A stretch of 64,000 nt of DNA, from assembly GCF_963678975.1 (NCBI RefSeq), contig NC_089281.1, forward strand, positions 12,157,318 through 12,221,317. Reading direction: 5' to 3'. Under the pieces are notes generated by a model. The model did not search any database. It saw nothing but the letters and a program-made list of their open reading frames with translations, and was not told the origin of the DNA. Source of the stretch: Dysidea avara. Its lineage: Eukaryota > Porifera > Demospongiae > Dictyoceratida > Dysideidae. Made by a program: the position numbers and the translations under genes. Shown in pieces: positions 8,441 to 62,314 of this stretch; positions within the stretch are counted from its first letter, which is position 1, and every line of letters starts with the position of its first letter.

Positions 8441-8464
8441 CTATTAAATATGTATACGTACTAT

Positions 8465-14375: not shown

Positions 14376-14967
14376 GTGCAATTACAGAAACAAGTCCATG
14401 CGATTTGGGATTAATTGCACTCCTACTATTGATAGTACAGCGGCATAGTCCAACATATCAAGCCTATTGTGCATTTTTTGATAAAAGCACCAAATTTGGT
14501 ACACATGTAGGTAAATACCTAATAATCATTTTTGGATATGGAGGCACTCACAAATGTACCTATGGTAGCCATAGCAACTATTTACAAAATGGCTGCTACA
14601 GAAACACTATTTCTTGTTGCAACAGCTGAAAACTTTGCCACAACAGTACACAATAACCAAATAAACATATAAACAAGTAAACAACTACACAATAACAAAC
14701 AAACAAATTACCACATGCATAGAGAACACATGGCATTTATTCTGAATAGAGCACTGTCAAAGTACATGGTACCTTTTCTAATTGAAGCACTGATCAGCTC
14801 AGCAGTTTTTAGTTTGGTTTCTTATTGAAAGTTCTAAAGTTAGCAGTTACAGAAAGGTTTGTGTGCATGTGTATATATATATATATTATGCAAACAATAT
14901 AATATATATTGTACCATTGTGTATCAGGTCATTCTTAGTTCCATTGGACTAACTTGTCAACACAACC

Positions 14968-24962: not shown

Positions 24963-25576
24963 TTAGCTATGGGTAGTTGTGTATGTTATAATGTAAGCAG
25001 GATATGCCAAATTGTTCTCATAAGTTATGTAAATCATTGATCCACCTGACTGGCCACAAACTGAGTCATATCTGTGTTGGATACTTCCCACTTGTCCTGC
25101 TGTAGCATCACGTAGTGGAGGCTTAGTAAATCTCTGTGGAGGAGAAAAGTAGCTAATTCCTGTTAGCACTCGGGCCAAAAACAGTTTCTTTAGGTTGCCT
25201 TGGTGATAGGCATATCCATTAGAGTAAGAAGCATCCACAGCAAAGTAGTTGCCTTTTCCCCACATGCCATCCCTACTAAGTCGCATGTCAAAACTATCAT
25301 CACCTTCATAAATCTCTTTAGGATTGGTTTGTGATGTCCCATGAAAGAGTATCTTTTCACCACGTGGGACACTTTTATCTTCCATACTCTTAGCTCTCAT
25401 CAAGTATTTCTTCCACAATACATAATTCTGTATTCTTTCAATTGTCCTTATTTCTACATTTGGTAAAGTTTGAAACAACTGATGGGAAATTCTCCAAAAC
25501 TCCTCCCCATTAGTATTATCATCTAATGTAAATAATTTCAAATCTGTATCCTGCTTTTCCCACTCTTCGGGCAGTA
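24963..25576 (-). CDS. PARP catalytic domain exon (last exon)
   Basis: Encodes about 204 residues of an ADP-ribosyltransferase domain of the PARP14/15-like type, which transfers ADP-ribose from NAD+ to targets. It starts LPEEWEKQ, the usual lead-in to such domains. ILFHGTS carries the NAD-binding His and MWGKGNYFAVDASYS the Tyr. LFLARVLTG, RYDSVCG and a final YENNLAYPAYIITY follow. The last block commonly reads YPEY in relatives but here is YPAY. The - strand acceptor ACTATAG precedes 25576; residues read upstream of it (to 25682) are hydrophobic intron translation. It lies 806 bases from the large exon with matching phase, so I treat it as its C terminus, though a separate PARP gene remains possible. 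Confidence 0.85.
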
Positions 25577-28500
25577 CTATAGTATGTAAATACCAATACG
25601 TGCAAGTATACAACAAAATGTGACATGCAGATATTATATACATATCGGAGAGTGTACAATATAGGCCATAAAAATATGACAATGCTTTATGTTACAGGAC
25701 TGTACAAGACTAAATGTTAATAATGACTGTCTATGCCTAAACAAACTATAATTAGCACTAAAACTTAGTAAAATTCCATGAGTTGTCAGCTATATTCATG
25801 CACAGTCTTATTCACAGTCTAATCTTTGTCTACTACTGCTGCTCTGCATGCTTTTCTAGGTTCTAACTAGAACTTTGTAAAGATCAATTTTACTTTACAA
25901 TGGCTGGGTTAGGCAGAACTGGCCAATAGGTAATAACTAATTGGTGAAAATAGGATGTTACATAATTTCATGACTGTGCAAGTACATAACTATAGCAATG
26001 TTTGCTCTAGGTCATGTGCTTGCTAGTGTACCACAGGCTAATGTGGAAAAGACACTTGAATAGTCCAGATAGTCTCAAAGTATCTGTTGAACCAATCTGG
26101 AAAATCAGGACACCTTGATAATCCAGATACTTTTGGTGGTTATCATGAGTAATAATCCTCAAATGTGTGTACATGCAAGTGAAATATCTAATCCACCTGC
26201 TTAGTAGGAGATTTAGTACAAAGCAAATGAAACAGATATGTTTTAATGTATTGTCATTATGTTTTAATTGCTAGTGAATTTCATAATTCCTCAGATACAA
26301 TACTCATTGAGAACATGTATATTCGTTACAGTTTTTACAATATTGTGACACTCATACAGACAGGTTATGTATACTACTTACAATCAGGGTCCAGGTAAGT
26401 TGTTGTTGGTAGAAGTGGCAGCAAAGAAGGCTGAGATGGTAGTTTGTCTTTGAAGCACTGAATACTGCAGACTTTAGCAAACACTTCCTGAGCAGCAGCT
26501 AAAACATGTCGTGTATCCAGTTCAGAAGAAACAACACAAGAAGTTCCAGCAGGAACATAAGAAGCAGAATATTGACACCTAATGGTATGATTGCTAACTT
26601 GATGAACGAAGTCTCTTAACCCTGCTAATGGCCAGTACTTGGAAGAACTTAGTTGATCATAAAGAGCAATCAAACTTAAGTCTTTTTGGCTGGTCAAAGT
26701 GGGTTCACATGTAGCAAGATATGTAGCTTTGAGACATTTTTCTACAACTTCATGACTCAAAAAACAAATCAATGCACTATTATTGTCACTATTCTCCACA
26801 ATGCTTGTAAATTCAACATAATGTGTAGCTGCGTTAAAATCTGCAATGGCCTGTTTTAGGTAAACTAAAGCACTTTTAAAATTACTTTGGGGTGGCAGTG
26901 GAGCTGCATTAGTAGCTGCAGCAGGTATTCTCTGGTTCCATACACTGACAGGAGCTGGTCTCCAAGGACGGACATGACTACAGTATCCACTGGGAGTTCC
27001 AAACAAACTGCTGTGGGTAGGAGTGGAATGAATCACAGGTAGGCTAAATGCATTAGTAAAAGTTGGCATGCCAGATGGTGGTGGCTGTGTTACATTAGGC
27101 TGTGTAGTCTGGTGTGTAGTACTGCTTTGTGAGTTGCGCAGAGTTTGTGCACCAGGCACACTAGCTGCTAACTGTCTGTGAGGCTTCCTAAAGTAACTAG
27201 TTTGTCTTCTCTGTACATACAACAAACTTAAATCATCATCATTGATAAGATCAGTTTCAGAGAATTCTCTATTAGCAAATGGATTATCGAATCCTACAGC
27301 AACCTCATCATCATTATCACCACCATCATTGGAAATGTCCTCTGAACCACCATCTGTGTATATGCACATATCTTCCATTAGCTCAGCAAGTTCATTGCAT
27401 TCTTCTTCACCAACAGTTGATGCAATAAACTGTTCCTGTGCACCAAAATACTGCAGTGAAATTTTATTAAACAAATCTGGTGCTTTGTTGCATTTAACAA
27501 AATAGAAATGTGCCTGAAAAAACAAACGTTTAAATATGATGCTAACTTGATGGTTAGACACAGTTTTAAGTGACAATATAATTTGTTTCAGAAGAACAAC
27601 AAGATCACCAACAGGATCATGTTCCAAATGATATAGCAGTAGTCCTGTACAATCTGTCGTTCTATTATCATCACTTATCCAGTTGGTAAAAAACGAAGGT
27701 TGAAGGAATTTGCTGATCAGAATTGGTGATGTCTTAATCTTCCCACCATCATTATTATCACTAGTACTGATGGTAATAGATTTAGTAGCAATGTTAGTCA
27801 CAGTCTTTGATTTCACTGCATCGACCTTCGCTGGGAGCATCTTACCATCACCACTCCAATATTTAACACTCTCTCCAATATTGTAGTTTACAGCTATCAA
27901 CAAATCACAGATGGTGGGTGTTATCTCTTCTCCTACAGAAGTAAGTTTAACTGCAGCTCTTGTGGCAACTGCATATGTTTTAACTTGACACTTATCTAAA
28001 GTTGATTCAATGTCTAAATGACTAGGACACTTGATCATTGCTTCCAAATGAGACACGTTTTGTATTATTCCACCCAGATATCTGTTAAGGTTTTGTGTTA
28101 TTTCTTTAACTACACTATCCTTGTCCTCATGATGAGGTGATATGCAAAGTGAAGGATCGTGATCTGTATGCTCTATTATTGCACAAAAAACTGTATCAGA
28201 GGATCCTTGTATGATTAAGCCATTGCTTACATGTTTAAGATTTGTTTTGATTTCATAATAGCAAAACAATTGTAAGTTACTTAGTTTGTCAGGTAGTGAA
28301 ATTTCCCTTTCAGTCAGTTCTGTGTTTTTCTGATGATGGATGATTCTTAATACTCCTAACTTAAACTGCTCTGATTGCAAAAGTCTTTCAAGGCTAACTA
28401 CAAATGTACAGCCATGATTTTGTCCTCTCTCACTGGCAATCCGCTCTTCCCTGCAATGATTATCAAGAGATTGTACATCATCATCTAGCTCCTCCACCAC

Positions 28501-31500
28501 CAAATTGCTTAGTAGTTTCACCCCCAACGATTGTGGTAAAGTGATTCCCCCATATCTACCTTGGAGTTTCATCATGTACCTGTATGTTTGAGCATCCTTA
28601 AGTCGTTTGCTATACCAAGGTACATCATCATATACAAGTTGACTAGCAGGACACAATTCAAGATGTTTATCAAGTAGGTACACTTCTGCAGGATTAAAAT
28701 CATCTGGAACTGACTCAGTTGCTTCTTCACTGTGCAAAGATTCAATAAGACAATGATTTGCTTGGATTGCTAATTCTAAATATTTTGAATTTTTACTAAG
28801 TTTGTTTTTAGAGATGACAAACTTTAAGTAGATCTTCTGTAAAATGTTTGTGTAATGGAAACTATTAGGTTCATCAGAAATGCCAAGGGCAGCAATAACG
28901 TTTTGACATTCCAGCATATCATCAGGTATTTTACACAAATAAGGGAACATGGATGGAAACTGACCTTTCTTCACAACACAATTACCATTAACCACAGAAT
29001 AGATTAAGCAGCTTTCTACAAATATACATTCTTTATTTTTCAGTCGAAACGGTTCATCTTGAGTTGCAGTTTTCTCTAGATAAACATAATGGTCTTCAAA
29101 AAGTTTCTGTAAGAAAACTGTTATTGGGACTTGTTGGTGTCTACTAGACTGAACCAATGATTGTGCTACTTTTGACAATTCCAACAAGTTTTCAATTACT
29201 GTACTGCAAGAAGGAGGGTGTGTGATGCCCAGAGCTTCAACATACTTGCATAAATGGTTGTTTTTACTTAAGTCAAAATGATTTGTAATAACATTGTTTT
29301 TCAAAAATGTCACATTACCAAAAGTAGCAAAACAACCATCACTAAAACTAGTCCACAGTTTTGCAATATACTTCTTTGGAAAATTTTCTGATATGATGTC
29401 ATCATTCTTGTAAACAGGAACAAATACAACTTTTGAAATATTCTTACAAAACAATAAGGCTGCTTCATCTACCCCATCCTCACCACCACTTTGGACAGAT
29501 TTGATAAGTTTTGAACATATAAATTCTAAAACTGCAACAGATTTATCATAAATGCACTGCTCCATAACTTCTACAACAATTTCTTGTTCTATACATTTCA
29601 CTATAGCAAATAATCCTTCCCATGATACGTCCTTTTGAAGCCCAAGTTGATGGAGGATAGTAAGTAGCTCTGGCTTGCACCATTCTTTTGGTGGAAATTT
29701 TTGGCTAAAGAAAATTTTGAAGAGTGTTTCTTTTGAATTTGGATCAAAAAATTCCCAGACAAAACAGAACTTATTTTCAGCAGCAACATAAATGAACCTG
29801 GTGCGTTTTAAAGCATCACACAATTCTGTTGACAAATTACGAGAAAACAAAAAAGTTACATGCACGATTATGGCTTTTGTAGTCATTTTGTGCAAGTTTG
29901 GTATAACTACATCTAAGTAAAATTTTGCAATATCATAACACTGGATTCCCAAACATTTGTAGATTATATTGTATACTGGCAAAGGTTTTAATAATAGCAT
30001 TGATGAATTGGTCATCACTTCAGTCAACCCCACTTCAGGTATCCAAGGAATAAGATAAGTACTATGCAATGTTGTTATGGCATACAGTTCATCAGTGATT
30101 GCCTCAAACATTGGTAGTTTACATACAAAACTCCTAACAGTAGGTAATAAGGAACTATCAGATATAGCATACAAAAGATAATTCAAGCTTTTCCTTAGAT
30201 CATGATCCAATGGAACCAGTTGTGTTAAATCATTCATTTCAATACATTTCAAAATATCATCTCCAATTCTGCAGTCTGCTAATACTTTGTTCAGAGCATT
30301 GGTATAATTGTCAAATGTCATATTGCACTGCAGTATGCTGAAGTCTAATACTGGGAAACCGAAATGTTTCATGATGTTCTTTACAGGACTATCACTTTCA
30401 AGTGATAACACCATTTTTGCTTTACAGACTGGTACTAGTGTTTCGTTAGATGCTGGTATAATGGGTTTGTACAAAAATTTATTTAAATATGGAACAAATT
30501 GATTAGTTGTTGGTCTAACAAATGCAATATAATCATCTAAGTACTTCCAATGTCTGACAATTTGGGAATGATCTTCTTGGCAGTCTTCAATCTTTTTAGG
30601 AACTAAACAGTCTTTTAATTGTGTATTTACACACACATAGTTGATTTCTGGAATAGCCATGTAATATCCTTTATTGATTAAGAAGTTAGAAATATGTTCA
30701 TCCTGCTCGAATTTAGAATGAATAAACTTTTTTGGTCTATGAGGAAGCAGTGGAGCATAGTGACTGCCATAGAATATGGGGGCCAATTTTTGTACATCAC
30801 CATCACTGGTTAATAAGAGTGGAACACCATCTATAGCATCACAACCTTCTTTAGTTGATATACAGTATCTCAATAGCAACATAATATTCTTTGCTATGCT
30901 GTCCTTATGCTGTTGCAGGTATAATGACTTGAGTACCTTGATAAAAAACACTGGATCTATCATAGTATCATATGTTAAATTACATTTCAGTGCTGCCTTG
31001 CTGATTTCTGAATAAATTGCCACTGGTGCTTTAGTTAAGTTAACTCCAAACTTAATCAGAAGTTCACATAATTGTCCCTCAGATCTGCAGATCTCAGCAT
31101 CCTTTTTTTCTAAACACACCATCTTTTGATCACTCAAAGTAAAGAAGTATCCACAATCTTGGCCTCTAACTGGCAGCCATGACCAACTATCTGTGAAGCT
31201 GTCTTTCTGTAGAATTGATAAATTATCCTCAAAAATTTTACAATACACCATTGTGTCTAAGTTATACAAATGCATCATGCCACTTTGATTATATTCTGTA
31301 GGAAATTTGCTATAATAATACCAGTCCATTCTTTTATCATTGAGAAATCTCTTGCAGGAAAGCAAAGCATTGACATATGCACTACACACAATAGACTGTG
31401 TTAAGCAACAATTCCAGTTAGACAGAGATGGTTGATTTGCAACAACATCAAGATGCTTTCTAGAGTCATCCACCAAAAAACTTCCATTGATGTGCACTGG

Positions 31501-34500
31501 CATGTATGACTTCTGTGGCAATGGCAATGAACAATACAACCAATAAGGAGCATCCCTCTCTACACTACTGTGCAACTGTATTGCAACACCTCCTTTCGGA
31601 ATTAAACCCCGTGAAATAGCAGCCATCAGTGTGCTTAAAGGAATTTTATTACTTCCAAAATGCTGGCTAATAAGCCACAATGATGTGGTGTGGTAAGGAG
31701 TGTGTTTATCTGACATTGGATCTATCCTGTGTTTTATTGTTTCAATTTCCAATTGATAATTCCAAGATATTTCATTGAGGGAAGCATTATCTTTCAATGT
31801 ACCCCCACCTCCTTCATTGTCTGTTGACACTTCATTGCTCTGACTACTGTCATTTACTGTTTTGGTGATCTCTTTAAGTATTCTGATTTCTTGTTTAACT
31901 AGTGCAGCATTTTCCTTGCACGTAGAAACACCATTGTTTGACAAAGAAGCAGATGTACTGAAATGATGAACGCAAGTGCTATTTTCCATTATTTCAAAAG
32001 CTGAAATACTTTTGATATTGCTAAGAAAAAGAACAAGATCTTCAGCACTATTTGCCAAAGTTTTAAATAACTTTTTCATTTCCATAGAATTCATTTTAAA
32101 TCCATCTTTCAGTTCACTTCTATAGGTAAAAAGGGACCTAGTAAATGGTAGTCTAAATACTACGCAACCATTTGAAAAGTCAGCTTGGATATCACTTAAA
32201 CAATTTTCACAAAGCTTGCTCATCTGAACAAACACATCACCATAAAATGGTTCAAATTCTTTGGAAAACAGCTGTAATATAGCATGAGAATTAACTTCAA
32301 ATTGCCTACTATGCATAGACCTTTTATGGTGACCAGGTATGTACAGTCCACCAGGATCCACGATACAGTAATTCTCAGGCACTCCTCTACTACCATAGGA
32401 TACAAACGTTAGGCAGTCAGTCACATGATATGCTATATTAAGCCCAATACCAAACCCCTCAAGTGTAAACTCTTCTCCTTCTTGCCCTAATTTTGTTATT
32501 CTATCTATATCTTCCTCTGACATTTTCCTATTGTTGTATACCAGCAATGAAGGACACTGGTGTATACTTTTCCATTCTGGTTCTCTGCTAAACAGTTTAT
32601 CATCTTGGGGGTTGAATTTACGATGGTCCAGAATAAACACTATTTCTGAAGCACCAGCATCATCAGCATTTTGAATGAACTCTTTAAAAATTGATTCATC
32701 ATGAGGATATTTTCTGAGTATTGAGTTAAGACGGTCACACAAATCTTCACTCTGACCGTAGTCAGTACCATCAAGAAAATTACTTACAGATATTTTATTC
32801 AGAATAGAATTGAGAGCAGATGGTATTCCTAAAGATTTGGCTAGCTCCCCACTGAAAGTAGGATGCAACCAAGAAGTACCTGCTTCAAAATGTTTACTCA
32901 ATATTTCAGATTTTGTTAAGTTTGGCAAATCAACAGTCTCTCTATATGCTAACTTGTTTGCTGGTCTCATAAAGCCATCTTCATTGGGTAGATAAAGAAC
33001 ACTATAGCATTCATTTGGATGGTGAAGAAACTGTTTTAAATTTTGTGCCAAATTAAACACGAATTGCACATGTTCTCCTGTTAACTTTTTATTTGGAGTA
33101 TATGATTGGTAAACTTCTCCCAGCAGTCTCAATATTTTAGTTTTGTCTAATTCATTTAACAGACCTAATTTAAGAAACAGTTCCTTATATTTCTTGTTTT
33201 CATCAGATAGATCATACAGATAAGGGTGTCCACAAACAATTCCACTATATAGCACAACCTGGCTGATAGCAAGAAACTCATCATTTTGCCATATAAATGG
33301 CAATCCTTTTAAGCTTTTAAATACACTTGTGGAAAATTCATGTTGACCAGCTTCACAAAGACATTTATACACTGCAGGACAACAATTGTTTAGCATCTCA
33401 GTATCAATATCATTGACTGGATTCTGTTTTACATGTTCCACTAACTGAACAAGATGGGTCACTACAAACTTAATTGTGGGTTGTTTGCTGTCAATTCTCA
33501 ATATATTCAGACTATTGGCTATTGTTGAATTGCTGACTGAATCAAATGACATTACAACTGGAGCTTGTGTAAATACCAAATTCATTTGTGAATAGCCAAA
33601 GACATCCTTTGGACATTGAAACAATGATGGGGGCTTGTACCATGGAAGCGACAATCCTTGAGGGCATTTAGACACAGGAACAAATGGAACACTTTGTAAT
33701 GTGCTGTATAACTCATGGTTGCGTCTATCATGAAAACTACCATAGCCATGAACATGTGATATGTACATTAACACTTGTTTAGAGCGTTGTATAGCTGCCT
33801 CTTCATCAGAGATCTTCTTCACACTTAAAGCTTTGTCTTTCAACTTGTCCATAGTAAACTCATAATCTGACATCCCCAATCTTTTCAAAACACTTACTAC
33901 TCTATCATCAATCATATATGTGTCCATTGGAAAGCACTCGTCACTATCACAATACAATGGAGCAAGATGTGATTTTGGATTAATCAAATCAACAGGTCTC
34001 TTCAAACTTCCAAATGGTTTTGTTGGTATGCTAGGAATTTGCGTAAGAAGCTTTTTAGCCCAATGAGCATGAAATGAACTATCCAGATATAGCAATAAAG
34101 TGATAATCTGTTTGTCTCTGGTTTCAGCTGGCAGAGTAGCAATATGAGGGATCAATACTTTGACACAAAAATCTTCATAAGTAATTTTAGGGACTGATTC
34201 CTCCAAAATGGATTTGATATTGTAAGGTATATCAACAACTGGATACTTGTGTTTGAGCAAAAGAGACACTATTTCATTCCTGATCTCTGGTTGAGGATTA
34301 TGATTAAACACATGACTATATAAATATGCATTTTTAGGAGATAGCCACTTTCCTCCATTGACATCCGACCATAGGATCAGCTTGTCAGTAAGATGAATAT
34401 TTTTCTTAATTTCATGGAATAGAGTTTTGCTAATTTCATTATGGCTACTTTCTGAAGTAGACCATAGAGAGTAATAAGCAGCAAGAAATTCCTTTTTGTC

Positions 34501-43500: not shown

Positions 43501-46500
43501 CATTTTACTTCACTATAACAAACTCACCAGTGGGATGTGCCTTTTCAAATGTAGGCCCTTTGCACCTTGCCTTTTCTTTTAGCTATGTATCTTTAATCAG
43601 GCTGCTCTTCTTCTTCCTTCATCCACGAAATCATACCGAGGTGTTAATTTTCCGTATCAACACTTTCTTTCAGCAGCATATACAGATGCCACATAATTAT
43701 TTCAGAGCTAGTCCTGGGAAGTACTTTAGTCCCAGCGCTATACTATAAGAGATATATTAGCTAGATATCTGTAAGTCAGTTCGCAATTGGTATCCGGTTT
43801 GCGACAGGTTCATGACCACGCCCATCAATTAAAGATATAGGTGGACTAATAGCGACAGAGTACGGAGACCACACCTTCTTAACAACCTAGCTGTTCACAA
43901 GATGATCTCACCTCTTATTGGTCTAGCTGGCTGCACACCCCTTGGCTGACTCGAGATATAGCTATACTCTAATACAACAGTCACTTTAATGTAACAGTCA
44001 CAAGTTGCATTGTAGCTAGCTGTGCTACAACAAAACTAAACAAACTAGTATCTTAATAAATTTTAAAATGAAGTAGGGATCTATGCAATAAAAAGTAGTG
44101 AAACAAGAGATGAATGATATTACAGCATAGCTTAGTGGGAAACTCCCTACTTTGGCATGCACATTAGCTATAACAAGTATTTTGCTCAATGCCAAAGTAG
44201 GAACTTCTCATTGAGCTATGCTGTAATATGTATCAACATTCATCTCTTGTTTCACTACTTAGATCCCTACTTCATGATCATTTTTTAAATTAATATTTTT
44301 TTTAAATTAAATTTTTTTTGTAGTACTCCTGAGCACCAGTTTGGGCATATAGACATGGAGGTCCCTGGTTCGAACCCTGAACAATTTTTTGACATTTTTC
44401 ATGCATGTGTTTTGGTGACGGTTTTATTAGAGTATCTTGATCACAATTGTTTCACATGTTTGGTTTTTGCTTTACAGTATATTTCCTAAGCTAATACTCT
44501 CTAAAAGGACGGTGCTAGGATGATTAGCTTTGAAAATCGGGTTTTCTTGGTTCATGTAAAGTACATACTTGTCTGTTGCATGCCTGAACGTATTGGCTTT
44601 CCTTGGTAGCACAATACACTGTTTATAATAAATATAAAGAAAATTGTTTAGCTGGTAAGGTTTAGGTGACCTTATTCAGCAGGTGGTTACACACATTAGG
44701 TGAGTTACTGACAAGAAAGTAGGGAATAGCAAACCCCGAATTCACACATTCATGTGCTTATAATTATGTGCTTTAATAATGCTGTAGGATCATTAGTTAA
44801 TACAATAAAAAGTGCTGAAACGAACAGGTGAACCTTGCAAATTCTTTGAGCACTTTTAGTGATGATCTGTACTAGATTATAAAATCTTTAAATTTTCTTT
44901 ACATATGTTAGTTAGTATTTTTGGCTATTCCCCTTCATTATCAGAGGAGAGGGAGTTAAAATGTTTAAAAATATGATGTGCTTGATGGATGGTTCTCCTG
45001 ATCTTAAGTGCATGACTGTCCTAATAAAATACTGCTTTACTCTATTGACATTATTACTTAGAGCTAAACTATTGTTCATTGTAAAGCTTTACCATGTCAA
45101 CATTTCATGGTAGATGCCATGCAGATCAGAGCCTTAGCAAGGGGATAAAAAGCAGTCTTCATCTGTGTTCAAGTGTAGAGTATAACTTTTTGCAAAATTC
45201 AAGTAGCTGGAAAGTGGTCTGGTGAAAACTAATTTATACTTACCACAGCCTTGTGAAAACTTTAGCTACGTTTCAAGTATATGTGTAATTTTAAAATGGG
45301 TTCCCTAGAGTAAATACTTACCAGTAATGTGGTGAATAGATATAAATCCTAATCCAAAGCGTCCAACTTTCATTGGGTCAGTATCTTTTAAGTTTTGATG
45401 TATTTTTGAGATAGACTCCCAGTCATTTTCAGTGAACTGAGCATTATTCCAGGACAGCAAGGCTGGACCCTGGAACTTTGCCAATCCAGGTAGCCACAAT
45501 TCATCAGTGCTGTGACGTCGAGGATCAATCATGAATTTAATCTCTGTAGCACCCGCATCATCAGCATTTTGTATTAACTCCTGTTACATAAAACAAAAAC
45601 AAACTAGATCATTTACCAATGTCATTTTCATTTGCTGCTTTAAAATTTACTATTATTAGGTTTCTTAACTAAGTTTAGTACTTAATAATTGTTATGGTTG
45701 GTCAGGTCATGTACAGATAACAACATTGTTGTTTGCAAGTATTTAAAATTGCCAACACACTATCATGTGTCCTACAGCTATATAGTGCTGACATGTGACA
45801 AACAACCAAGAAAATGCCATTTTCATGCATCGGTAGCTCAATAGTGTTTGAACAGAAATTAACCAGTTTTGCCATGGAAACTCCTTCGTGGTAGGGCACC
45901 TCCTATTTCAAATTTCAGTTCAATTGGTCCAGCCATCATTGAGATATGTATCTTCAAAGTTTGTCTTACGTTTTCTGAAATTTCTTACATATTTTGTTTT
46001 TCGCAAAACAACAAAACTTGTGTGTGCTTTAGTTGCCAATTTACTTCAAACCTGAAGGACAGTAAGAGGATAATTCAGCAAATTTACAGTACAATTTTTT
46101 GCACAGATTAAATTAAGAAAAAAGGAGTTACACACAATTTCGAAAACTGCAAAAGCTATTTTGTTGTCATGCCTACAGGGTAATAATCTGCTTGACAAAA
46201 TAACTTCAGAATCAGTCTGTGCATGAAGTAATGATATTGTAGTGCAAACCTTTTGTGTACTGAGAGTATTAGCTAAGGAGATATAAAGCAAAACCAAATA
46301 TGTGAAACTGGCGCAATTGAGATACTCTAATATATATACATATAAAAGCATGTACAAAAACGTCTGAATTTTTTTCTCCAGGGTTCAAACCAGGAACCTC
46401 CACACCTACGTATATGCCTAAACCCTTTACCACTCTACCACAGCTGTCAGTTGCTCATTTCACTTAATTTTAAAAAAGGAAGTTATAGTTTAGTACACTA

Positions 46501-49500: not shown

Positions 49501-52500
49501 TGAATCGTAATTAATCAGTGGGAAACTTCTTCAGGTATATAGGGCATCTCCCATGAGTCCAATCTGCCCAGATATCTTAGTGCCTTCAAAATTCAGTTTT
49601 TCACAAATACATACAGCCATACAGTCTTCGACGATTTAAAAGGTTTAAAGGCAAGGAAGTGTCAAGGCCAACCATAGGCTGGCTTTGGAACTTGTAATTA
49701 CTAAAAGAAGTGACATCTGCACAAAAAAAACCAGCCAAGCTGTTGAAATAGGTGTAGCATTAAAAGGCCTGGGTTAAAGAAGTTTTGAAATCAAAAGTGG
49801 CGGCTAAGAAATTCTGCTATGACGTTGATGCTAATAATGGCTATATATTAGCATTAACATCATTGCAGCCATTTCTTGGCCGCCACTTTTGATTTCACAA
49901 CTTTTTTTTAACCCAGGCTTTTTAAGGCTGCATCTTTTGGCTATTTTTGTGTGGATTAGAGTACTACAGACAATTTGCGAAAATATATGGGCTATTATAG
50001 TGTAAGTAACTATATACCTTATTTACATGTGTATGCTAGTTAATACCTTTAATATTTGGCCGCCTTCAGGGTATCTTTGCAAAATGCTCTTCACAAGCTT
50101 TGTAAGGGGAGGAACTTGTATTCCAATATTCCTTTCCCAATGAACATCTATAATATATAGCTAATAAGCACACATCAAATACAAGGCACTGTTAACACAT
50201 TGTGTCACAACTGTCATTGACACATACAAGCATAAACCCTACAACCCAGTATCATGGCTGTAAAAAAAGGCGCACTCAACAAAGTAAAATAAAAGAAAAA
50301 AACAGCAACTAATAAAAGAACTGTAAAGTTTCAAACTTGATCTTTTATCGTTGACTTGCATTGTGTTCTACATTCAATCTTGTTGCTTTCCTACTAGTAA
50401 TTTGGGCACCTTTTTCAGAAGAGTAAAAAGGTGGCCAAATTACTAGCCAATTAAGTTTAAAAGGAATGAATTAAAATGCAGCAAGACTGAATAGGCCTTA
50501 TTCACTGAATTAATTTTGTAGCACTTATAACCCGTTGCGAAGGAGTTGTCCGCCAATGTTCGCCATTTGCAGTACCTTAACCATGGTAACATCACTATTC
50601 TCCGCCAAATTCACCATTTGCAGTACCGTAACTATGGTAACATGATAGCAACTGTCGTGCTCGCCCAGTTTTAGAACTCAAAATTACATCCGAAAAGCCA
50701 TCACCATGGTAAATAGGGATCCTTGTATGGCTTCGCGTGACATCAGATGGCACTTACTGTTCTAAATGAATAAGGTCTATACTGTATTAAGTGACTACTC
50801 TATTTGATTCTAATGTTTATTGTGTAATATTATTGATGCCTGGACAGGTTCTGACTAGGTCAGTGTTTAAGTCTGCAACTATTAGACTAGTATATGTGAC
50901 CGGATTTCACATAACAAGGCTTCCACACACACAAAATCAAACTTACGTTTTTACCAGAAATGGATTGCTGGCCTAATACACTATCATATTCCACACTGTA
51001 CTTCCTTCAGGACTGGCAAGTCTGGTTTCTGTGGCAGCTTTCTTCCGACCCTGTCAAAGCCACGAGTGAGAGATTGGTGCCATTGAATGGCCATGGCTTT
51101 GTGATAATGGTGTGTAGTGAGCTGGGACTTCACAGAGAGCTCACCAATAGTGTTCTCAGTCAATTTGGAGTGATTTGAGGGCCATGGAGGGCCATGGAGA
51201 GCCCAAACTTGGCCTCTGGATTCCAATCGTCTCCTTGCTTCATTTTATACCCCTATATTAAGCCCACCCACCGCCCCCGACCCTCCCACTCTATTACTAC
51301 CACCTGTGATATTATTACCCGCTCGAGAAAAGCTTCCCAAAACAGGGCTAATTTTGGGTATCAGAAATGTGTACACCCACTCAGTGAGTAAATAGATGCA
51401 TACTTGGTGCAAATTTTGTTTGCACAGCTGTAGGCACTGGGAAGTTATTACACAATGATTACTTAAAATCGCCATATCTCCTAACGAAGCTTTGTGCGTC
51501 GAAGCCGGGTTTTGTCAAATTCAGTCACATATACAGTATCAATTTAATAGCAGTGATTGAGGATAGGAAAAGAAATGTGCTAAGCTGTTCAGCTTACAGG
51601 TTGCTTTCCAACTAGTAGTAAACTAAAATTATCGCTGTTAACTCTTTGAGTATGAACCCATCTGTATTAAGTATACCTCCTGATATAATTAATACTGACT
51701 AAACAGTGATTTAGCTTTGGATATTCATCAAACATATAAGTGCATCCAACAATTTTTCCTGCATACAGTGGAACCTGTCTAAATCGGTCACCCTCAGGCC
51801 AGAAATATTTGGCCTTTATAGAGAGATGGCTGCCTAACTCAATATCCTCCATAAAGCAGTCATAGGCCACAAACTGAGGTTTGGCCTTTATACAAAGGTT
51901 CCAGGGACTTATATATTCAGGTTTAGCTATAAAAATGCATTTAGCTACACTCCAGTACATCGCTTACTTACATAGCTAGCAGATAAATTAGCAGAAAAGA
52001 GCCTCAGTGAAGCATAGATAATATATACCTTATATACTATCTATGGGTAAGGTATATATTATCTATGAGTGAAGGTACTCTGAGTTTGGAGACAGCGATT
52101 GAGCTGATTATGGTCCCTGGCTACAAAGTCTGTGAGTAACAAGTTGATGTTGTGCTACTTCTAAAAACCAGTCGCCATGCAGCTAGCTAACTCATCTGGA
52201 ATTAACTATAGACAGTATATGCTGCTATGAATTAACCAACTATGTATTACTATTTTACAATAGGGTAGTTTTGAGTTGTGCAATAATATTATTAGTTAAT
52301 TGTCGTATTTCGTAATTCATGAAATATTCGTAATTCGTTCAATTACATTGCTATGCACTGCTAAGGAAGCGTTTGGTAAACCATATACCTATGGGTAAAC
52401 AAACCGCTTTTACCAACATATTACGCACAGAAGTATCTTCTAAACTGTTTTTTATAGTGTGACTAACGTGTTTTTTTCCATAAATTCTCTCGACAAAGCC

Positions 52501-55500
52501 TCAAAGCTGCTCTTCATTTTTGTTCACGTACGTTAGTGATACACCCCCTTTCGAAGCGATAGGCTATTCCTGGTAGTGTACGAGGCCTGCACCGTTGTTT
52601 TTCAGTTGCTAAACGCCTGAAAACCTCAAGGGGAAGGTATTCTGAGGAAAGTCGCCACACCCGTATTTCAGTCCGCCGAAAAGAAACCACAAGTTCACCT
52701 GTGCAGAAGTTTAATATAGACTTCATTTCACTTTTACTTCTTACGTAAAAGCTGCTTTTACCATTATTTAACGATTTTGCTCACGTGGGTGCGTACGGAC
52801 AAACATAGATAGGTAGGTAGATAGGTAGTCTCGCGTAGCCAGACCGCTTTTTTCTCTTTGTCATTGGGTAGGGAGAAAAAAGGGTCTGGAACAGTTCGAA
52901 TCCCACACTCGTCTTGGCACTCCCCAGATAATTGGGGGGTGTTAACCAAAGAAACGTGATGCGTTTTCAAATAGTAGCCGCTTGCATCAATCAATTGCAA
53001 GCGCGTATTTATAAACCGATTAGCATCTAAAGCTGCCTTTGAGGCGATAATAGATTGAATCGATTGTTAGTTCTTTAAGTAAGTTAAATCTTTGTTTATT
53101 GTTGTGCTGTGGCATTCTTGTTACAATGGAGTTTAAGCGCATGGGTTGCATACTTATGACATAGACTCGTGACGTGTCAAGACGATTGTGGGATTCAAAC
53201 TGTTCCAGACCCTTTTTTCTCCCCACCCAATGACAAAGAGAAAAAAGCGGTCTGGCCACGCGAGACTAGTAGATAGGTACACACACACACACACACTTTT
53301 ATGAAAACAATTTCAGTAAACCAGGCGCACGCCTGGTTTAAAAACAGGCGCACGCCTGGTTTAAAAACAGGGACTTCCTTAAAGACGACGAACTGTTAAC
53401 TACACAATTGCAAATCCAGGATCAAGATAGTAAGGTGAGCTTTAATTAGAATCACACGAAGAGGCAAAGCCATGGATAGTCTGGCGCGGCCGCCCCTTCG
53501 CAAGTGGTCATGAGCTTTTCTATACTGTGCGTTTATAACTTTTCCATATTACAGAAGTATAAAGTAGTGCAGCTAGTTTACTCACCATAAGGCCATACCT
53601 AAACTTTGATCTTATGTTGCGCGGGCAAAATTATTTTATTGTATCCGGTGTTACTGAACACCCTAATGAGAGCTTTGTAAATTTGGGTAGGTAGGTCGGT
53701 TTGAAAATGAAAATGATAAAAATTTTAAACACAAGCATACAAAATGCAAATAAGGCCCCTATTTGGTGATTATTAGTTTCTCATCCACCGCCCGCATCCT
53801 TCTCAAGCTACCGCATGGTAAGCCATTATTTGCTCAGAAGAACACATGATACCAAACTGGTATAATTTTTTGTTGATGAACGCTACAATGCGCTATATAT
53901 CACCAGGAGAACTGTTGTTTTCCTTAGCAAATTGCTGCAGTACCAGTTGCAATTGTGTTCTATCGACTTCATCAAAGCAGGCTTTCAGTTGACTGTCGAA
54001 AAACAGTTGGCGAACACGAAAAGTAGAATCAGCTGGTGAAGGAAATGTTTGTAGTAAGAAAGGAAGACAATTTCGACAAGGTCTGTATCAGTGTGTTAAT
54101 ATTATAAAATAATGGCATAATGGTAATACCCTCCTGCCCTCATCATAATAATTATAAAGGCTGGATGAGAAACTAATAATCACCAAATAGGGGCCTAATG
54201 AATGTAGCTATAATAGTACATACACAGTTAAAAATCTAGATTTCATACTCTTCTAGTAGCATCAGATATCTCCAAAAGAGCTTTCCCATCGTATTCTACA
54301 ATTTTAGAGCATTGGACGATCTTCAATGGTCCCTTTTGGACTATATCACGAGGGTGCTGATGACGTGTTATCTTTAATTAAGTACACATGGTCCGCACAC
54401 GTGATTTTCAAAATTATTTCATTTGAAGAAAAATGTAGTTGGTCGGGTCTCGCAACATAAGATCAAATAGGTATGGCCTAATGGCTGTAGCTGGCCGCTT
54501 TGTGAGAGGCCTTTTGTGTAGCGAAGTGCTGTTTGGGACTGCTAAAGCTGGCTGTTATACGTGTTATAGAGGTGACCGCTTAATGCAAACTATTTCTGTA
54601 CAAACTGATTGGGAATTGGTCGGGATCATAGTCACGTGGCTGCTATGTTGAGGTGACTGCCCAACTCAGGTGACTGTTAAGGGAGGTTCCACTGGCATGA
54701 ATATCTTTAATCCACTGCAGTATTACTTTTATTATTACCAGTTATGTAGCCAGACCAGTATATGCATCTTGTATTACTGGTGGATAATCATGAGATGGTG
54801 CAATGTGGGCTAAGAGAATTTGCTCAGTATCTTGACTGGATGAATTGGTTCAGTTACAACCTGCTAATAGATTAACTTCTAGCCATAAGGGGCCAGTGGG
54901 TCTTTGAGTCATTGGCTGACCACTGTACAGTAGCCGCAACAGAGGCCAAGTATATAGCTTGTACATAACTGTGCTAATGTTAAGGCTGTAATAAGTAGCA
55001 TGACCAATTACCATTGACAATTATACTTGCTACTAGATATACTAGCATACTAGTCATCCTTAGAAACAACACAACTTCATTTCTAAGACCCATACTCTTG
55101 AGTTTGTGCAGTGTTTGCTGAAATACAGAACTGGGTCAAGGTTATAGTGGCATGTACCAAATCAGCCATAGCCGGCACATAATAATCTGTAACTTATAAG
55201 TGCCTGGTGTACATCAGTCCTACCTATGCAACAAATTTGCTTTCTGATAGCAAGCGATTGTGTCAATCAATGTGTAAAATATTTCAGAAAATTGGCAAAA
55301 GGGAGAAAAAAATAAAAAAATCTCTTAGTCTTCCTTGAAGGGAAAAGAGTATTAAACTTTGTCACAACTAGAGATAAAAGCACAAATATTACATATATAG
55401 ATACCTTTCTGTTTTGAAATCAGCTTTCCTGAAGTTGAGAATATTTTCTGAGGTCCTTCATGCTCCTTTAATTTCTTTAGAGCATATTGGAACAGTTCAA

Positions 55501-55684
55501 CGCCTTCTGGGTGTTCCTTTACTTTGTCAATAATTAGCTGTTTTCTCACCTTCTCGGGTTTGCTTCCAAGTTCATCACAGTCTTCAGGTGAGAGCAATGC
55601 TAAATTCAGTAACTTAGGAACAATCTGATTAATATCAACATTACATAGAACAGTCTCAAATTCAGATTCTGTCATTGTATGTAT
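24963..55684 (-). CDS. CARD - three sacsin repeats - HEPN - PARP giant protein (five joined exons)
   Basis: Inferred join on the - strand: 55684-55405, 50147-50047, 45580-45322, 39620-26382, 25576-24963. Every junction has a GT donor and AG acceptor and keeps phase. The G ending exon 1 plus AT starting exon 2 gives Asp. Exon 2 ends in LQRYPEGGQILK and exon 3 opens ELIQNADDAGATE, the expected continuation of a sacsin repeat. Exon 3 ends HHIT+G and exon 4 opens AT+LPFIL, giving HHITDLPFIL. Exon 4 ends after PD+T and exon 5 opens TA+LPEEW. From the ATG at 55675 the join is 14,484 nt, a multiple of three, or 4,827 residues. Domain order: CARD, SRR1, SRR2, SRR3, J-like remnant, linker, HEPN, PARP. 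Human sacsin instead has an N-terminal ubiquitin-like domain and ends in HEPN. The joined architecture is inference; the parts are visible. Confidence 0.75.
25577..26381 (-). other. Intron between HEPN and PARP exons
   Basis: About 805 bases from the donor T|GTAAGT at 26382/26381 to the acceptor CTATAG before 25576. If the intron were retained, the frame would add Cys-Lys and stop (TAG at 26374-26376), giving a natural PARP-less isoform. No repeat or other gene recognised inside. Confidence 0.6.
26382..39620 (-). CDS. 13.2-kb exon: rest of sacsin repeat 1, repeats 2 and 3, HEPN
   Basis: A single uninterrupted exon of 13,239 nt (over 4,400 codons). Residue numbers count from the Met at 39618. 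Residues 1-1280 complete sacsin repeat 1 after its ATP site. Repeat 2 begins near 1284, with ELIQNADDARATE near 1304 and IGRFGIGFCSIYHLTD near 1375. Repeat 3 begins near 2286, with EFIQNADDAGASE near 2311 and LEGFGIGLNIAYHVTD near 2385. Around 4006-4063 a J-domain-like helix pair has HFY where HPD is expected. Then come an acidic stretch and a Pro/Ser/Thr-rich linker (about 4080-4240). A HEPN domain follows (4246-4388; SALVYLKQAIADF, CFLSHEVVEKCLKATYLA, LRDFVHQVSNHTIRCQY). GHKL-type ATP motifs make repeats 1 and 2 probably competent; repeat 3 lacks the GR of GRFG. Sacsin family function is chaperone-like; the role here is unknown. Confidence 0.92.
26455..26880 (-). other. HEPN domain
   Basis: Helical higher-eukaryote/prokaryote nucleotide-binding domain like the one that ends sacsin: YLKQAIADF, SHEVVEKCLKATYLA, LRDFVHQVSNHTIRCQY, then HVLAAAQEVFAKV. 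RDFVH has an Arg and a His but not the exact RxxxxH spacing of HEPN ribonucleases. Nucleotide binding is therefore likelier than RNA cleavage. Confidence 0.8.
32420..32765 (-). other. Sacsin repeat 3, variant ATP-binding segment
   Basis: EFIQNADDAGASEIVF and LLVYNNRKM are intact. The glycine loop reads LEGFGIGLNIAYHVTD, with GluGly where GlyArg stands in repeats 1 and 2. ATP binding or turnover here may be altered. Confidence 0.75.
35470..35770 (-). other. Sacsin repeat 2, ATP-binding segment
   Basis: Hsp90-like (GHKL) nucleotide pocket. The Asn-bearing helix ELIQNADDARATEVKF is followed by LLAYNNAVF and the glycine loop GRFGIGFCS, with YHLTD after it. All expected motifs are present. Confidence 0.85.
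39755..39870. repeat. Partial copy of the AAGAAATGGCTG palindromic MITE
   Basis: CCCAGCTATGAAAAAGAG, GTCAAGAAATGGCTG and a closing GGGCTGTTTTGGATTAG match the arms of 20018-20342. Lies in the intron upstream of the 13.2-kb exon. Confidence 0.55.
40169..41278 (+). pseudogene. Non-LTR retroelement ORF1-like protein with PHD finger (broken)
   Basis: The first part (40169-40516) encodes a PHD-type finger: YACVSCSENV, CISCDWCGQWKHSKCAGL, FFCKLCQ, then a coiled-coil-like EKQNSIAAKMNVIEEKL. The second part (about 40690-41278), in the same frame, encodes VVYGIKES, RDCLRLGKFN, RPLLVKLS and IPEGIQIKPDMNKEEKLREQ. This is the pattern of ORF1 proteins of CR1/L2-like retrotransposons. Four in-frame stops separate them (40514, 40520, 40670 and 40688 areas). 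A (TAA)n tail at 41393-41410 fits the 3' end of such an element. No reverse transcriptase is present, so it is a short or internally deleted copy in an intron of the - strand gene. Confidence 0.65.
41393..41410 (+). repeat. (TAA)n tail of the retroelement
   Basis: Six uninterrupted ATA/TAA units about 115 bases after the ORF1-like stop, typical of CR1/L2-type 3' ends. Confidence 0.6.
41411..42420. other. Intronic sequence, no gene recognised
   Basis: A diverged copy of the CTCTATT.AGTATCTCAA motif lies near 41465-41490. The rest has short direct repeats (TAATTAGCTTGAAG twice near 42168-42195) and no coding signal I can support. Confidence 0.4.
42436..43055 (+). pseudogene. Ulp1-like protease and PHD finger remnant of a transposon
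   Basis: Fragments in shifting frames encode NDDSMIYLYNSAY, GAADCGL followed in another frame by YAIATLTCLAHDKDP, and LWPHLREILETGKVSS. This is the end of an Ulp1/C48-like cysteine protease as found in many invertebrate transposons; the DCG is the Cys motif. Next come EIHYICRIPGEWSNMVCCNEC and, after a stop replacing Trp (TAG at 42961), FHATCVDY and YCDQCTKK, a PHD-like finger. At least one frameshift and several stops make it non-functional. Confidence 0.6.
43064..43103. repeat. Perfect short palindrome
   Basis: AAGAGTATATAATGTGGG is followed immediately by its exact inverse, giving a 40-base hairpin just after the Ulp1/PHD remnant. Confidence 0.75.
43104..44060. other. Intronic sequence without recognised gene
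   Basis: No domain-bearing frame. A TACTCTAATACAACAGTCAC-type copy of the dispersed motif lies near 43972-43995. Confidence 0.4.
44068..44275. mobile_element. Palindromic MITE, about 208 bp
   Basis: Starts ATGAAGTAGGGATCTA and ends with its inverse TAGATCCCTACTTCAT. AAGTAGTGAAACAAGAGATG and its complement mark the inner arms. No coding capacity. Confidence 0.75.
44325..44400 (+). repeat. tRNA-derived SINE fragment
   Basis: TTTGGGCATATAGACATGG, GAGGTCCCTGG and B box GGTTCGAACCC match the better preserved copies at 46362 and 49105 on the other strand. The A box half is degraded. Confidence 0.5.
45322..45580 (-). CDS. Exon with first ATP site of sacsin repeat 1
   Basis: 259-nt exon with acceptor TGTAACAG and donor ACTG|GTAAGT. 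It encodes ELIQNADDAGATEIKFMIDP, PALLSWNNAQFTENDWESI and VGRFGLGFISIHHIT, the complete GHKL ATP-binding core of sacsin repeat 1. The preceding exon supplies the YPEGGQILK lead and the next supplies DLPFILSN, so this is part of the giant gene. Confidence 0.88.
45760..46000 (+). repeat. Dispersed head repeat, copy A
   Basis: Shares CCAAGAAAATGCCATTTTCATG, GAACAGAAATTAACCAG, GGTAGGGCACCTCCTAT and CATTGAGATATG with copies at 46600-46860, 48148-48480 and 49390-49600. All are in the same orientation within one intron. Confidence 0.6.
46362..46470 (-). repeat. tRNA-derived SINE, copy with A and B boxes
   Basis: On the - strand, TGGTAGAGTGGTAAAGG fits a pol III A box and GGTTTGAACCC a B box, about 45 bases apart. 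An A/T-rich tail follows. A 3' composite repeat sits beside it. Confidence 0.65.
46597..46865 (+). repeat. Dispersed head repeat, copy B
   Basis: AGTGTGTCACGCAGCCAAA, CAACCAGTGTAGGCA, GGTAGGGCACC and CAAATTTGAGTTGAATCT match the other copies in this intron. Preceded by TGTGTGCTCTATTAGAGTA. Confidence 0.6.
47035..47235 (+). repeat. AAGAAATGGCTG MITE, half copy
   Basis: AGCCAAGCTGTGAAAAAGGG, AAAGGCCAGTGTGAAAAAG and GGCCAAGAAATGGCTG match one arm of 20018-20342. The other arm is absent. Confidence 0.6.
47336..47430 (+). repeat. Head repeat fragment, copy C
   Basis: ATCAGAACACACGAAGTGTG then TTGTACGGCCAAGTACAACC: the terminal palindrome and GCGGCC-like block of the same head family. Confidence 0.5.
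47545..47610 (+). repeat. tRNA-derived SINE, A-box half
   Basis: CAACTGACAGCAG and AGCGGTAAAGGGTTTGGG match the 5' half of the SINE at 46362-46470, in the opposite orientation. No B box. Confidence 0.45.
47706..48147. mobile_element. MITE with TTAGGC ends and 6-bp target duplication
   Basis: 442 bp, ends TTAGGCTCCGGCCTATTATG and the near-perfect inverse ending GGCCGGTGCCTAA. Direct repeat CGATAG flanks both sides (47700-47705, 48148-48153). It interrupts a head repeat: removing it restores the ACACACGATAGTGTGTTG palindrome. The interior has repeated TATTATGC units and three CTATTAGAGTA-type motifs. Confidence 0.75.
48148..48480 (+). repeat. Dispersed head repeat, copy D
   Basis: Continues the head interrupted by the 47706-48147 MITE: GTGTTGTGCGGCCAAGTACA, CTGAACGGAAATTAACCAA, GGTAGGGCACCTCC and CCACTGAGATATGCACC. 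Confidence 0.65.
49105..49205 (-). repeat. tRNA-derived SINE, second copy with A and B boxes
   Basis: On the - strand, TGGCAGAGTGGTAAGGG (A box) and GGTTCAAAGCC (B box), preceded by GAGGTGAGCAACTGG as at 46470. Confidence 0.65.
49390..49610 (+). repeat. Dispersed head repeat, copy E
   Basis: TTGTGCTGCCAAGTATGGCC, AAGAAAACACCATTTTCATG and a degraded CAATCTGCCCAGATATC end. Preceded by TGTGTGCTCTATTAGAGTA as in copy B. Confidence 0.55.
49655..49965. repeat. AAGAAATGGCTG palindromic MITE, full copy
   Basis: The left arm with CCAGCCAAGCTGTTG and AAAGTGGCGGCTAAGAAAT faces the right arm GCAGCCATTTCTTGGCCGCC and AACCCAGGCTTTT. The centre is near 49845. Confidence 0.75.
50047..50147 (-). CDS. Small exon, start of sacsin repeat 1
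   Basis: 101-nt exon with acceptor TATTATAG and donor TTAAAG|GTATTA. Encodes VHWERNIGIQVPPLTKLVK and SILQRYPEGGQILK, the characteristic opening of a sacsin repeat. It begins with two bases of a codon completed by the G that ends the CARD exon. Confidence 0.82.
50150..51765. other. Intronic sequence, short duplications only
   Basis: Between 50530 and 50645, TTCGCCATTTGCAGTACC and TTCACCATTTGCAGTACC each lead into a GGTAACAT block, a diverged direct repeat. No domain-bearing frame seen. Confidence 0.45.
52143..52745 (-). repeat. 600-bp dispersed repeat, copy 2
   Basis: Reverse complement of 13115-13715 with apparently few mismatches and small indels. One 16-base block (ATACCTATGGGTAAAC near 52384) is present only here. 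Confidence 0.75.
52827..53267. mobile_element. Palindromic MITE with AGTCTCGCG ends
   Basis: Arms of about 85 bp: AGTCTCGCGTAGCCAGACCG, TTTGTCATTGGGTAGGGAG and GGGTCTGGAACAGTTCGAAT, mirrored at 53185-53267. No coding capacity. Flanked by an AGGTAGGTAGAT microsatellite and an (AC)n run. Confidence 0.8.
53279..53296 (+). repeat. (AC)n microsatellite
   Basis: Nine uninterrupted AC units. Confidence 0.9.
53320..53368 (+). repeat. Tandem duplication of a hairpin unit
   Basis: CAGGCGCACGCCTGGTTTAA occurs twice head to tail. Each contains the palindrome CCAGGCG.CGCCTGG. Confidence 0.7.
53754..54195. mobile_element. PIF/Harbinger-type MITE with TAA duplication
   Basis: 442 bp with ends GGCCCCTATTTGGTGATTAT and the perfect inverse ending AAATAGGGGCC. 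Flanked by TAA on both sides (53751-53753, 54196-54198), the usual PIF/Harbinger target duplication. The interior has a short - strand frame without a recognised domain. Confidence 0.75.
54700..55400. other. Intronic sequence, nothing recognised
   Basis: AT-rich intron just downstream (on the - strand) of the CARD exon. No exon-like segment with a sacsin or death-fold pattern is seen. Phase continuity between the flanking exons does not require one. Confidence 0.45.
55405..55684 (-). CDS. CARD-like death-fold exon
   Basis: Encodes MTESEFETVLCNVDINQIV, PKLLNLALLSPEDCDEL, KVRKQLIIDKVKEHPEG and VELFQYALKKLKEH. This helix pattern, with LLSPEDCDEL and the following charged helices, fits a CARD, a protein-assembly domain of innate immunity and cell-death pathways. 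The donor AAAG|GTATCT ends the exon one base into a codon, matching the small exon at 50147. An acceptor (CTGACAG) precedes ATACATACA-ATG in frame, so the ATG at 55675 may be either the true start or internal if the 61590-62314 exon joins. The CARD call is by pattern only; DED or DEATH are alternatives. Confidence 0.7.
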
Positions 55685-61589: not shown

Positions 61590-62314
61590 GGTATCTGTTA
61601 TATCAAACAGCAGAGTGGAAGCTATTTTCAAATATACAAATGATGCATCCTGAAACTTATTGATGTTCTTAGTGGCTGTTTCTATCATGTGTGATACAGC
61701 TGTCAAGGGAACAATAAACTCCAAACGTAGAGAAGATCTACCCGCTTTGTGAAATGGAGGTATGACATAAGGCTTCACTCCACAGTGCTCAGAAATAAAC
61801 CTTTTCAACTCATCATATTCTTCTTTGGTTATACGTGAGAACAGTTTATTTTTCACAACAGCAACCATTTTTTCATATCCCGCAGGAATCTCTTGATGCT
61901 CTTGCATGCAATGTTCATATATCTGTTGCAACTTCATCTGGCTATCAAGCTTCTCTTCATACTGTGCCAACATCACTTCACAGTGATCAGAACACTCCAG
62001 TGACTGAAGTAGTAACTTAAGTAGATAAAAATCATCCCATCTCCAGCACCGACGAAGATTTTTATTGAACATATTGTGCAAGTTATTACAAGCATTTATG
62101 TCTTCCTGTTGATCTTCATTAAACAATAGCACATGTGGATTATCTCTGACAGTAAGCTGAGAGCAAACACTTTTTATGATCTCTAAATTTTCCACTTCAT
62201 TTTGTTTTAGCTCTTTAATAATCCTTGCCATGAGCATGCCAAATTCAATGCTACCTTGATGAGGTGTAGTGAAAGGGGCTGATGTTGAGCCACTGCTTTT
62301 AGTACTTCTTTCAT
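61590..62314 (-). CDS. Exon of unknown domain, probable 5' exon of the giant gene
   Basis: Open region on the - strand. The Met at 62237 gives 216 codons to the donor GATACC|GTGAGT. Open codons extend upstream to an acceptor-like CTGTTAG before 62314, so the true start may lie outside. Visible text: RRCWRWDDFYLLKLLLQSL, KLQQIYEHCMQEH, PAGYEKMVAVVKNKLF, ITKEEYDELKRFISEHCGV, then LRLEFIVPLTAVSHMIE and FVYLKIASTLLFD. Mainly helical with a final beta-like part. It resembles an unnamed module I associate with death-fold and NLR-like proteins of simple invertebrates, but I cannot name it. It ends in phase 0 and the CARD exon opens in phase 0 on the same strand, so a join is plausible. Confidence 0.6.

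Follow-up and report, generated by a model that had tools for sequence, protein, structure and literature searches.

The cellular role of the sacsin ATPase is still debated. Anantharaman et al. 2013 (PMC3710099), in its accessible text, presents human sacsin as a chaperone that carries ubiquitin-like and DnaJ domains and reports several sacsin-like proteins of Amphimedon fused to DEATH, for which a suicidal response was proposed. The paper nowhere uses the word PARP, and in its accessible text no such protein with both CARD and PARP was found. The excerpted text of PMC8195603 deals with Death-TRADD-N units whose ends vary; fusions to sacsin and fusions to Macro, PARP and HEPN are mentioned there separately. 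A coral sacsin-like gene was discussed as a stress gene in the abstract of PMC8626496. Sacsin, PARP and HEPN are absent from the main text of the Dysidea avara genome paper (PMC12909245), and a death fold, sacsin and PARP in one protein were not found in the portions of the open-licence PMC literature that were covered, supplements aside. The initial annotation of the locus described here knew of no described protein with its domain order, literature searches aside; the full order was indeed not found in that literature, but SACS with PARP has been deposited (P0055 and P0082), and DEATH-sacsin fusions were published in 2013 (PMC3710099).

The locus lies in a 64,000-nucleotide stretch of the D. 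avara genome (assembly GCF_963678975.1, contig NC_089281.1, positions 12,157,318 to 12,221,317), hereafter the window. From its sequence, the findings suggested one D. avara gene of about 40 kb with the order Death, adaptor, CARD, three sacsin repeats, HEPN and PARP, to which, jointly with the immune or cell-death mechanism proposed below, we assign a probability of about 0.55.

Gene structure and splice conservation

All five exons that had been reported were present in their places on the - strand of the window. These were a CARD exon (55405..55684; acceptor phase 0, donor phase 1), exon 2, where sacsin repeat 1 begins (PPLTKLVKSILQRYPEGGQILK; 50047..50147), exon 3 with the Hsp90-like ATP-site motifs of repeat 1 (ELIQNADDAGA ... 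GRFGLGF; 45322..45580), a 13.2-kb exon 4 (26382..39620) and a PARP exon that includes the stop (24963..25576). Exon 4 contained the rest of repeat 1, repeat 2 (35041-35769), repeat 3 (31975-32748), a linker and HEPN (about 26473-26784). Joined from the ATG at 55675, the exons gave 14484 nt, encoding 4827 aa, and the only stop stood at the very end; the phases at the ends of the first four were 1, 0, 1 and 1, and every border was GT-AG, bearing out the earlier claim of canonical borders and exact phase. The join also restored two sacsin motifs across introns, GGQILK/ELIQNADDAGA and ISIHHIT/DLPF (slash, splice junction), as had been proposed.

With introns of 4-6 kb, GT-AG borders by themselves carry little weight, and the join is better than chance because of a comparison with paralogs. 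Four paralogs (G1-G4) lay on the + strand at C10:11.95-12.13 Mb, making the window gene the fifth member of a tandem array, and each contained exons 2, 3 and 4 and the PARP exon (SACS-HEPN-PARP). The donor of exon 2 and both borders of exon 3 were conserved in G2-G4, and the exon 4 acceptor in G1-G4. At the exon 2 acceptor, the nearest upstream AG, located by eye, gave phase 1 in G2-G4 and in the window gene; a coding exon is therefore needed upstream, and the 0-1 phases of the CARD exon fit this need.

At the passage from exon 4 to PARP, a GT donor fell at the same codon (CTGGNNCCTGAT-N/GT) in all five array genes on C10, and the acceptor AG stood two bases before the LPEEW codons, in phase 1, in all five as well. 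The PARP exon copies had no stops (5/5), with dN/dS of 0.17-0.50 over 10 pairs. Having its own exon and its own stop, the PARP part could be a separate small gene beside each sacsin gene; this is very improbable, as the exon kept the same place, strand and phase in 5/5, about 450-1250 nt past the HEPN match, and two models from the glass sponge Oopsacas minuta hold SACS and PARP in one protein. Given the five conserved exon 4-PARP joins, an independent PARP gene was set aside as unlikely.

Extent of the gene and the NCBI model

Exon 4, used as the query of a protein search, matched 77 proteins. Among them, P0002 ('sacsin-like [Dysidea avara]'), an NCBI entry that judging from its style belongs to RefSeq, was 100% identical to the query and is taken to be a model of the window gene itself. 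P0002 is one transcript that contains Death, the adaptor exon, the CARD exon (shortened) and sacsin exons. Its coding exons reach ~64752, 5' of and outside the window, which refutes the gene start at 55684 given in the initial annotation. All on the - strand, they include a first coding exon (start MEVNSKPRG; about 64752-64728) and a Death domain exon (about 64678-64385), both beyond the window, and an adaptor-family exon 5' of the CARD exon (61590..62314; 241 complete codons) that joins in frame. With these 5' exons, the complete reading comprised 8 coding exons and 5178 aa. The order CARD, three sacsin repeats, HEPN and PARP was thus supported as one gene but was incomplete, lacking the Death and adaptor-family exons.

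P0002 departs from the complete reading in several places. A donor at 55550 cuts CARD at 42 aa, exon 2 is skipped, an optional 87-nt cassette exon is added (41139..41225, -; phase 1-1), and a 140-nt GT-AG intron within exon 4 (31652-31513) shifts the frame, so that the model ends at 3179 aa without HEPN or PARP. This truncation weighs most heavily against the complete protein being the sole product. The complete reading was taken as ancestral because the early donor at 55550 was absent, by eye, from a CARD-exon relative at C10:11773290 and exon 2 was present in 4/4 paralogs. By blastn, the cassette had no second copy in the array. Opposite it, an ORF at 40691-41275 (+) resembled, by eye, a LINE-type ORF in a paralog region, and the cassette may therefore be transposon-derived.

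Nine other ORFs of the window were scanned with Pfam. One matched DDE transposase families (8441-9055, +; DDE_1 fragment, E 2.5e-12), and the remaining eight, one of them the adaptor-family exon, had no match at E<=0.1. Six adjoining broken ORFs at 14953-19514 (+), likewise with no Pfam match, are probably a decayed mobile element.

The tandem array

Exon 4 was open in G1-G3; in G4 its frame was broken in the assembly and intact in the database copy P0003. Two further database proteins are not independent relatives, as P0001 is identical to G3 and P0005 to a part of G1 (100%).

The window copy showed segment exchange with its neighbors. Against G1 and G2, amino acid identity was 90-99% over most of residues 910-2220 (dS 0.05-0.12, in windows from 1053) and 51-61% over residues 2660-3900 (dS 0.9-1.6). 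Against G3, it was 52-75% over most of 910-2370 and 78-95% in most windows over 3504-4340. Such sharp mosaic identity across C10:11970907-12196938, which covers exon 4 of the window gene and of G1-G3, is of the kind that gene conversion leaves. Segment exchange is common in defence gene families and is possible in any tandem array.

In windows along exon 4, with G1, G2 and G3 compared, dN/dS was <=0.34 against G1 and G2 and <=0.46 against G3, which shows purifying selection on the gene. These values bear on whether the gene chiefly makes the truncated form of the NCBI model, which terminates once sacsin repeat 3 has begun, with HEPN and PARP rarely or never included. P0002 and its 140-nt GT-AG intron speak for that form; we regard it as quite improbable, since exon 4 was open to its end in G1, G2, G3 and nine further relatives (P0006-P0014, 4421-4479 aa), the dN/dS values were low, and PARP was kept in 5/5 array genes.

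A second sacsin cluster was located at C5:20.32-20.98 Mb and 22.31 Mb, with 11 copies by repeat-2 matches. Among 39 PARP matches in the genome at E<=0.001, none lay on C5.

N-terminal Death, adaptor and CARD modules

The Death domain (PF00531) of P0002 scored 33.1 bits against a cut-off of 22.6 (E 6.3e-8). When the domains named in the initial annotation were compared with Pfam profiles, SACS and PARP scored above their cut-offs, HEPN reached 21.9 bits against 22, and CARD remained below its cut-off, with E 0.025 for the exon alone and 0.001 within the first 300 aa. The predicted fold of the CARD exon, a candidate six-helix death fold of the CARD type, matched CARDs. By sequence, the exon had three PDB matches (E 0.05-1.1), one of which we take to be a design on the Apaf-1 CARD template. 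The CARD-exon relative at C10:11773290-11773526 was 49% identical (E 1.2e-16), with acceptor phase 0 and donor phase 1 by eye, as in the window. This relative and a weaker one at C10:11813104-11813301 (-; E 0.0019) lie 140-180 kb from G1 exon 2 on the same chromosome.

The adaptor-family exon is predicted to form a helical region followed by a strand-helix-strand-strand-helix region. Its fold model had a pLDDT of 42, too poor to use; the order of strands and helices partly fits the RRM-like fold of TRADD-N, no Pfam match was obtained with TRADD-N sought, and S193-S194, which may correspond to the tiny residue-Ser pair expected at the beta2-beta3 turn of TRADD-N, were invariant in 8/8 copies. 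From these features we infer that the exon could be TRADD-N-like. The family had 76 genome matches at E<=0.01, itself counted, and dN/dS was 0.10-0.21 against the seven relatives compared. All eight aligned copies ended at the same codon followed by V-S, as a GTNAG-type donor in phase 0 would read, and the CARD exon bridges this phase 0 to the phase 1 of the exon 2 acceptor.

The Death-adaptor module also occurs elsewhere. In P0088, whose precomputed domain list includes PF28177, it is joined to ankyrin repeats, and the adaptor module could therefore belong to a neighboring gene. Gene prediction would then have fused two neighbors, a Death-adaptor(-CARD) gene that lacks ankyrin repeats and, beginning near exon 2, a sacsin-HEPN-PARP gene. 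As for the same order in relatives, to which the initial annotation had pointed, SACS-HEPN-PARP recurred in the four tandem paralogs, but the upstream regions of G1-G4 yielded no CARD, Death or adaptor exon (for G1, within the approximately 4.5 kb seen). A genome-wide search with the CARD exon gave no match inside the array except the window's own, and no death-fold Pfam match was found in 20 of the 59 upstream ORFs (>=75 aa) of G2-G4, transposon-like, repeat and more distant ORFs being left out. These absences favor two genes, as do the O. minuta proteins, in which the first IQNADD is preceded by no more than 68 and 36 residues.

Against two genes, the phase 1 acceptor of exon 2 requires an upstream coding exon, which the 0-1 CARD exon fits, and the NCBI model joins the modules. 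Moreover, upstream of a sacsin gene on C5, and on its strand, stood an adaptor-family exon and a CARD-like ORF (E 8.8e-4, below cut-off), in the order CARD-like then adaptor, unlike the window gene. For two sacsin genes to have such an upstream module by chance, P was roughly 3e-4 to 9e-4, assuming 60 to 106 copies spread evenly, 25 kb and 18 sacsin genes (17 were counted, 5 + 11 + 1). We consider the fusion of two neighbors unlikely and retain the single gene as the preferred reading.

Sacsin repeats, HEPN and PARP

Repeated Hsp90-like SACS regions with ELIQNADD and GRFG motifs define the sacsin family, and three such repeats were present. The first 300 aa matched Pfam SACS at E 2.2e-60, and exon 4 matched it at E 6.6e-150 in three stretches. 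Exon 3 aligned over its whole length with a solved sacsin domain (E 6e-28), and repeat 2 matched one at E 7e-51. At E<=1, no ubiquitin-like or DnaJ Pfam match was found in exon 4, the PARP exon, the first 300 aa or P0002; an NLR signature (NACHT plus LRR) likewise had no Pfam match in the pieces scanned. Eight PADLOC models of the anti-phage protein TmtA, presumably Tiamat, matched the sacsin repeats (window 26383-39618), the best at E 1.8e-98.

HEPN, just under its Pfam cut-off in the window copy (E 2.1e-4), appeared in the precomputed domain lists of relatives such as P0001 and P0003 and had no PDB match by sequence at E<=10. Neither an R-x4-6-H nor an R-x4-6-D motif was present in the window HEPN, making the earlier proposal of HEPN as a second effector doubtful for this copy, which is probably not an RNase. 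An R-x4-6-H near RYP was kept in G1, G2 and G3 and lost in the window copy and G4. The HEPN of G1, G2 and G3 could be active because the motif is retained, and HEPN activity may thus differ among the array copies.

The PARP exon matched PF00644 at E 5.1e-15, and its closest matches were PARP12 (E 5.6e-22) and PARP15 (E 2.5e-21). Where the catalytic pattern H-Y-(I/L/V) is expected, the alignment had H-Y-I. This pattern is typical for transfer of single ADP-ribose, and PARP activity of the mono-ADP-ribosyltransferase type would be predicted from it. The closest other PARP exons of the genome (L008 and loci on C3 and C14) belong to open frames about 1043-1126 aa long with a macro-domain plus PARP look, PARP14-like by eye from L008.

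Relatives in other organisms

Nine proteins that appear to come from other species (P0006-P0014, 4421-4479 aa) showed 53-54% identity, with 52-56% for P0006 and P0007 against the array. In all nine, the big ORF ran past the YLDPN site into SK or GK and ended soon afterwards, the reading expected of a GTAAG-type donor; among the 36 relatives whose ORF ends were compared, P0015 ended earlier, and more distant ones are not comparable at the YLDPN site.

In O. minuta, SACS and PARP occurred together in two proteins, P0055 and P0082. P0055, 25% identical to the exon 4 query, contained SACS in three stretches and PARP; it had no HEPN Pfam match, and a HEPN-like stretch before PARP was visible by alignment only. 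With 68 (P0055) and 36 (P0082) residues ahead of the first IQNADD, both begin directly with a sacsin repeat, which leaves no room for a death fold. All eight closer ORFs without PARP (P0078-P0081 and P0083-P0086) ended within about 30 residues of the SACS-to-PARP passage of P0055, the more distant P0060 and P0087 being left out of the comparison. Demosponges and glass sponges therefore probably share the combination of SACS and PARP, separated by a late intron, and the presence of the pairing in O. minuta makes it probably old. A SACS+PARP protein from Amoebophrya (P0076) possibly had an independent origin.

Proposed mechanism and meaning

What the sequence establishes is the exons and their frame, the conservation among paralogs of the splice sites from exon 2 to PARP, the identity of most domains, purifying selection and the five-gene tandem array; the steps that follow are proposed. 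Read from domain order, the protein would fit a sensor-ATPase-effector layout. The sacsin repeats could work as a clamp under nucleotide control that senses a ligand, either misfolded or related to an invader. A change in clamp shape would release the death folds at the N terminus, which could then self-assemble or join the numerous Death and CARD adaptors of the sponge. Clustering of the death folds would then turn on the C-terminal PARP, which could transfer single ADP-ribose units onto proteins or nucleic acids, and this modification may stop growth or kill the cell. The HEPN of the window copy would most likely bind nucleotides or RNA rather than cut. A bolder reading, at less than even odds, is a single-chain immune switch of 5178 aa that combines death folds, three Hsp90-like sensor-ATPase repeats and an NAD+ effector, and that would derive from an old sponge SACS-HEPN-PARP family with segment-trading tandem copies.

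The same domains could instead form a stress chaperone, in which the sacsin repeats manage folding, and PARP and the death folds provide a tie to general stress or apoptosis control and not to immunity. The description of sacsin as a chaperone and the suicidal unfolded-protein response proposed for Death-sacsins in the accessible text of PMC3710099 agree with this, as does the coral stress gene of PMC8626496. Segment-exchanging tandem arrays, death folds and a domain of the PARP12/15 type are more reminiscent of conflict genes, although these features are not decisive, and we place the chaperone on the unlikely side.

If the immune switch is correct, sacsin, known from human ataxia, would have its origin in a conflict system with ADP-ribosylation as the last step, or would have been co-opted by such a system repeatedly. 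The co-occurrence of SACS and PARP in a demosponge and in a glass sponge would tie the sacsin ATPase to an NAD+-using effector in early-split animals, and the pairing in such distant sponges suggests an old sacsin role in immunity or cell suicide. The window gene could serve as a concrete test case for sacsin-type ATPases as immune or cell-death switches, a role hinted at by the TmtA resemblance.

Comparison with known systems

Like sacsin (SACS; PDB 5v44-5v47), the window gene has three SACS repeats and a candidate C-terminal HEPN; unlike sacsin, it adds an N-terminal Death domain, an adaptor module and CARD as well as a C-terminal PARP, and is without a ubiquitin-like or DnaJ match. The bacterial TmtA anti-phage proteins share the sacsin-type region, the best stretch covering positions 15-405 of a 1370-position model. 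With the PARP12/14/15 mono-ADP-ribosyltransferases the gene shares the H-Y-I catalytic domain, and it differs from them in having no macro, WWE or zinc-finger Pfam match in the pieces scanned. The 'Sacsin-like' proteins P0055 and P0082 of O. minuta resemble it in SACS, the C-terminal PARP and, by alignment, a HEPN-like stretch, but start at a sacsin repeat without an N-terminal death fold. The Death-TRADD-N proteins, as described in the excerpted text of PMC8195603, similarly have N-terminal death folds and a variable end, with TRADD-N, a candidate identity for the adaptor-family exon here, between them; the full domain order of the window gene is not named in that excerpt. The DEATH-sacsins of Amphimedon, as presented in the accessible text of PMC3710099, are likewise from a sponge and likewise join Death to a sacsin-like protein.
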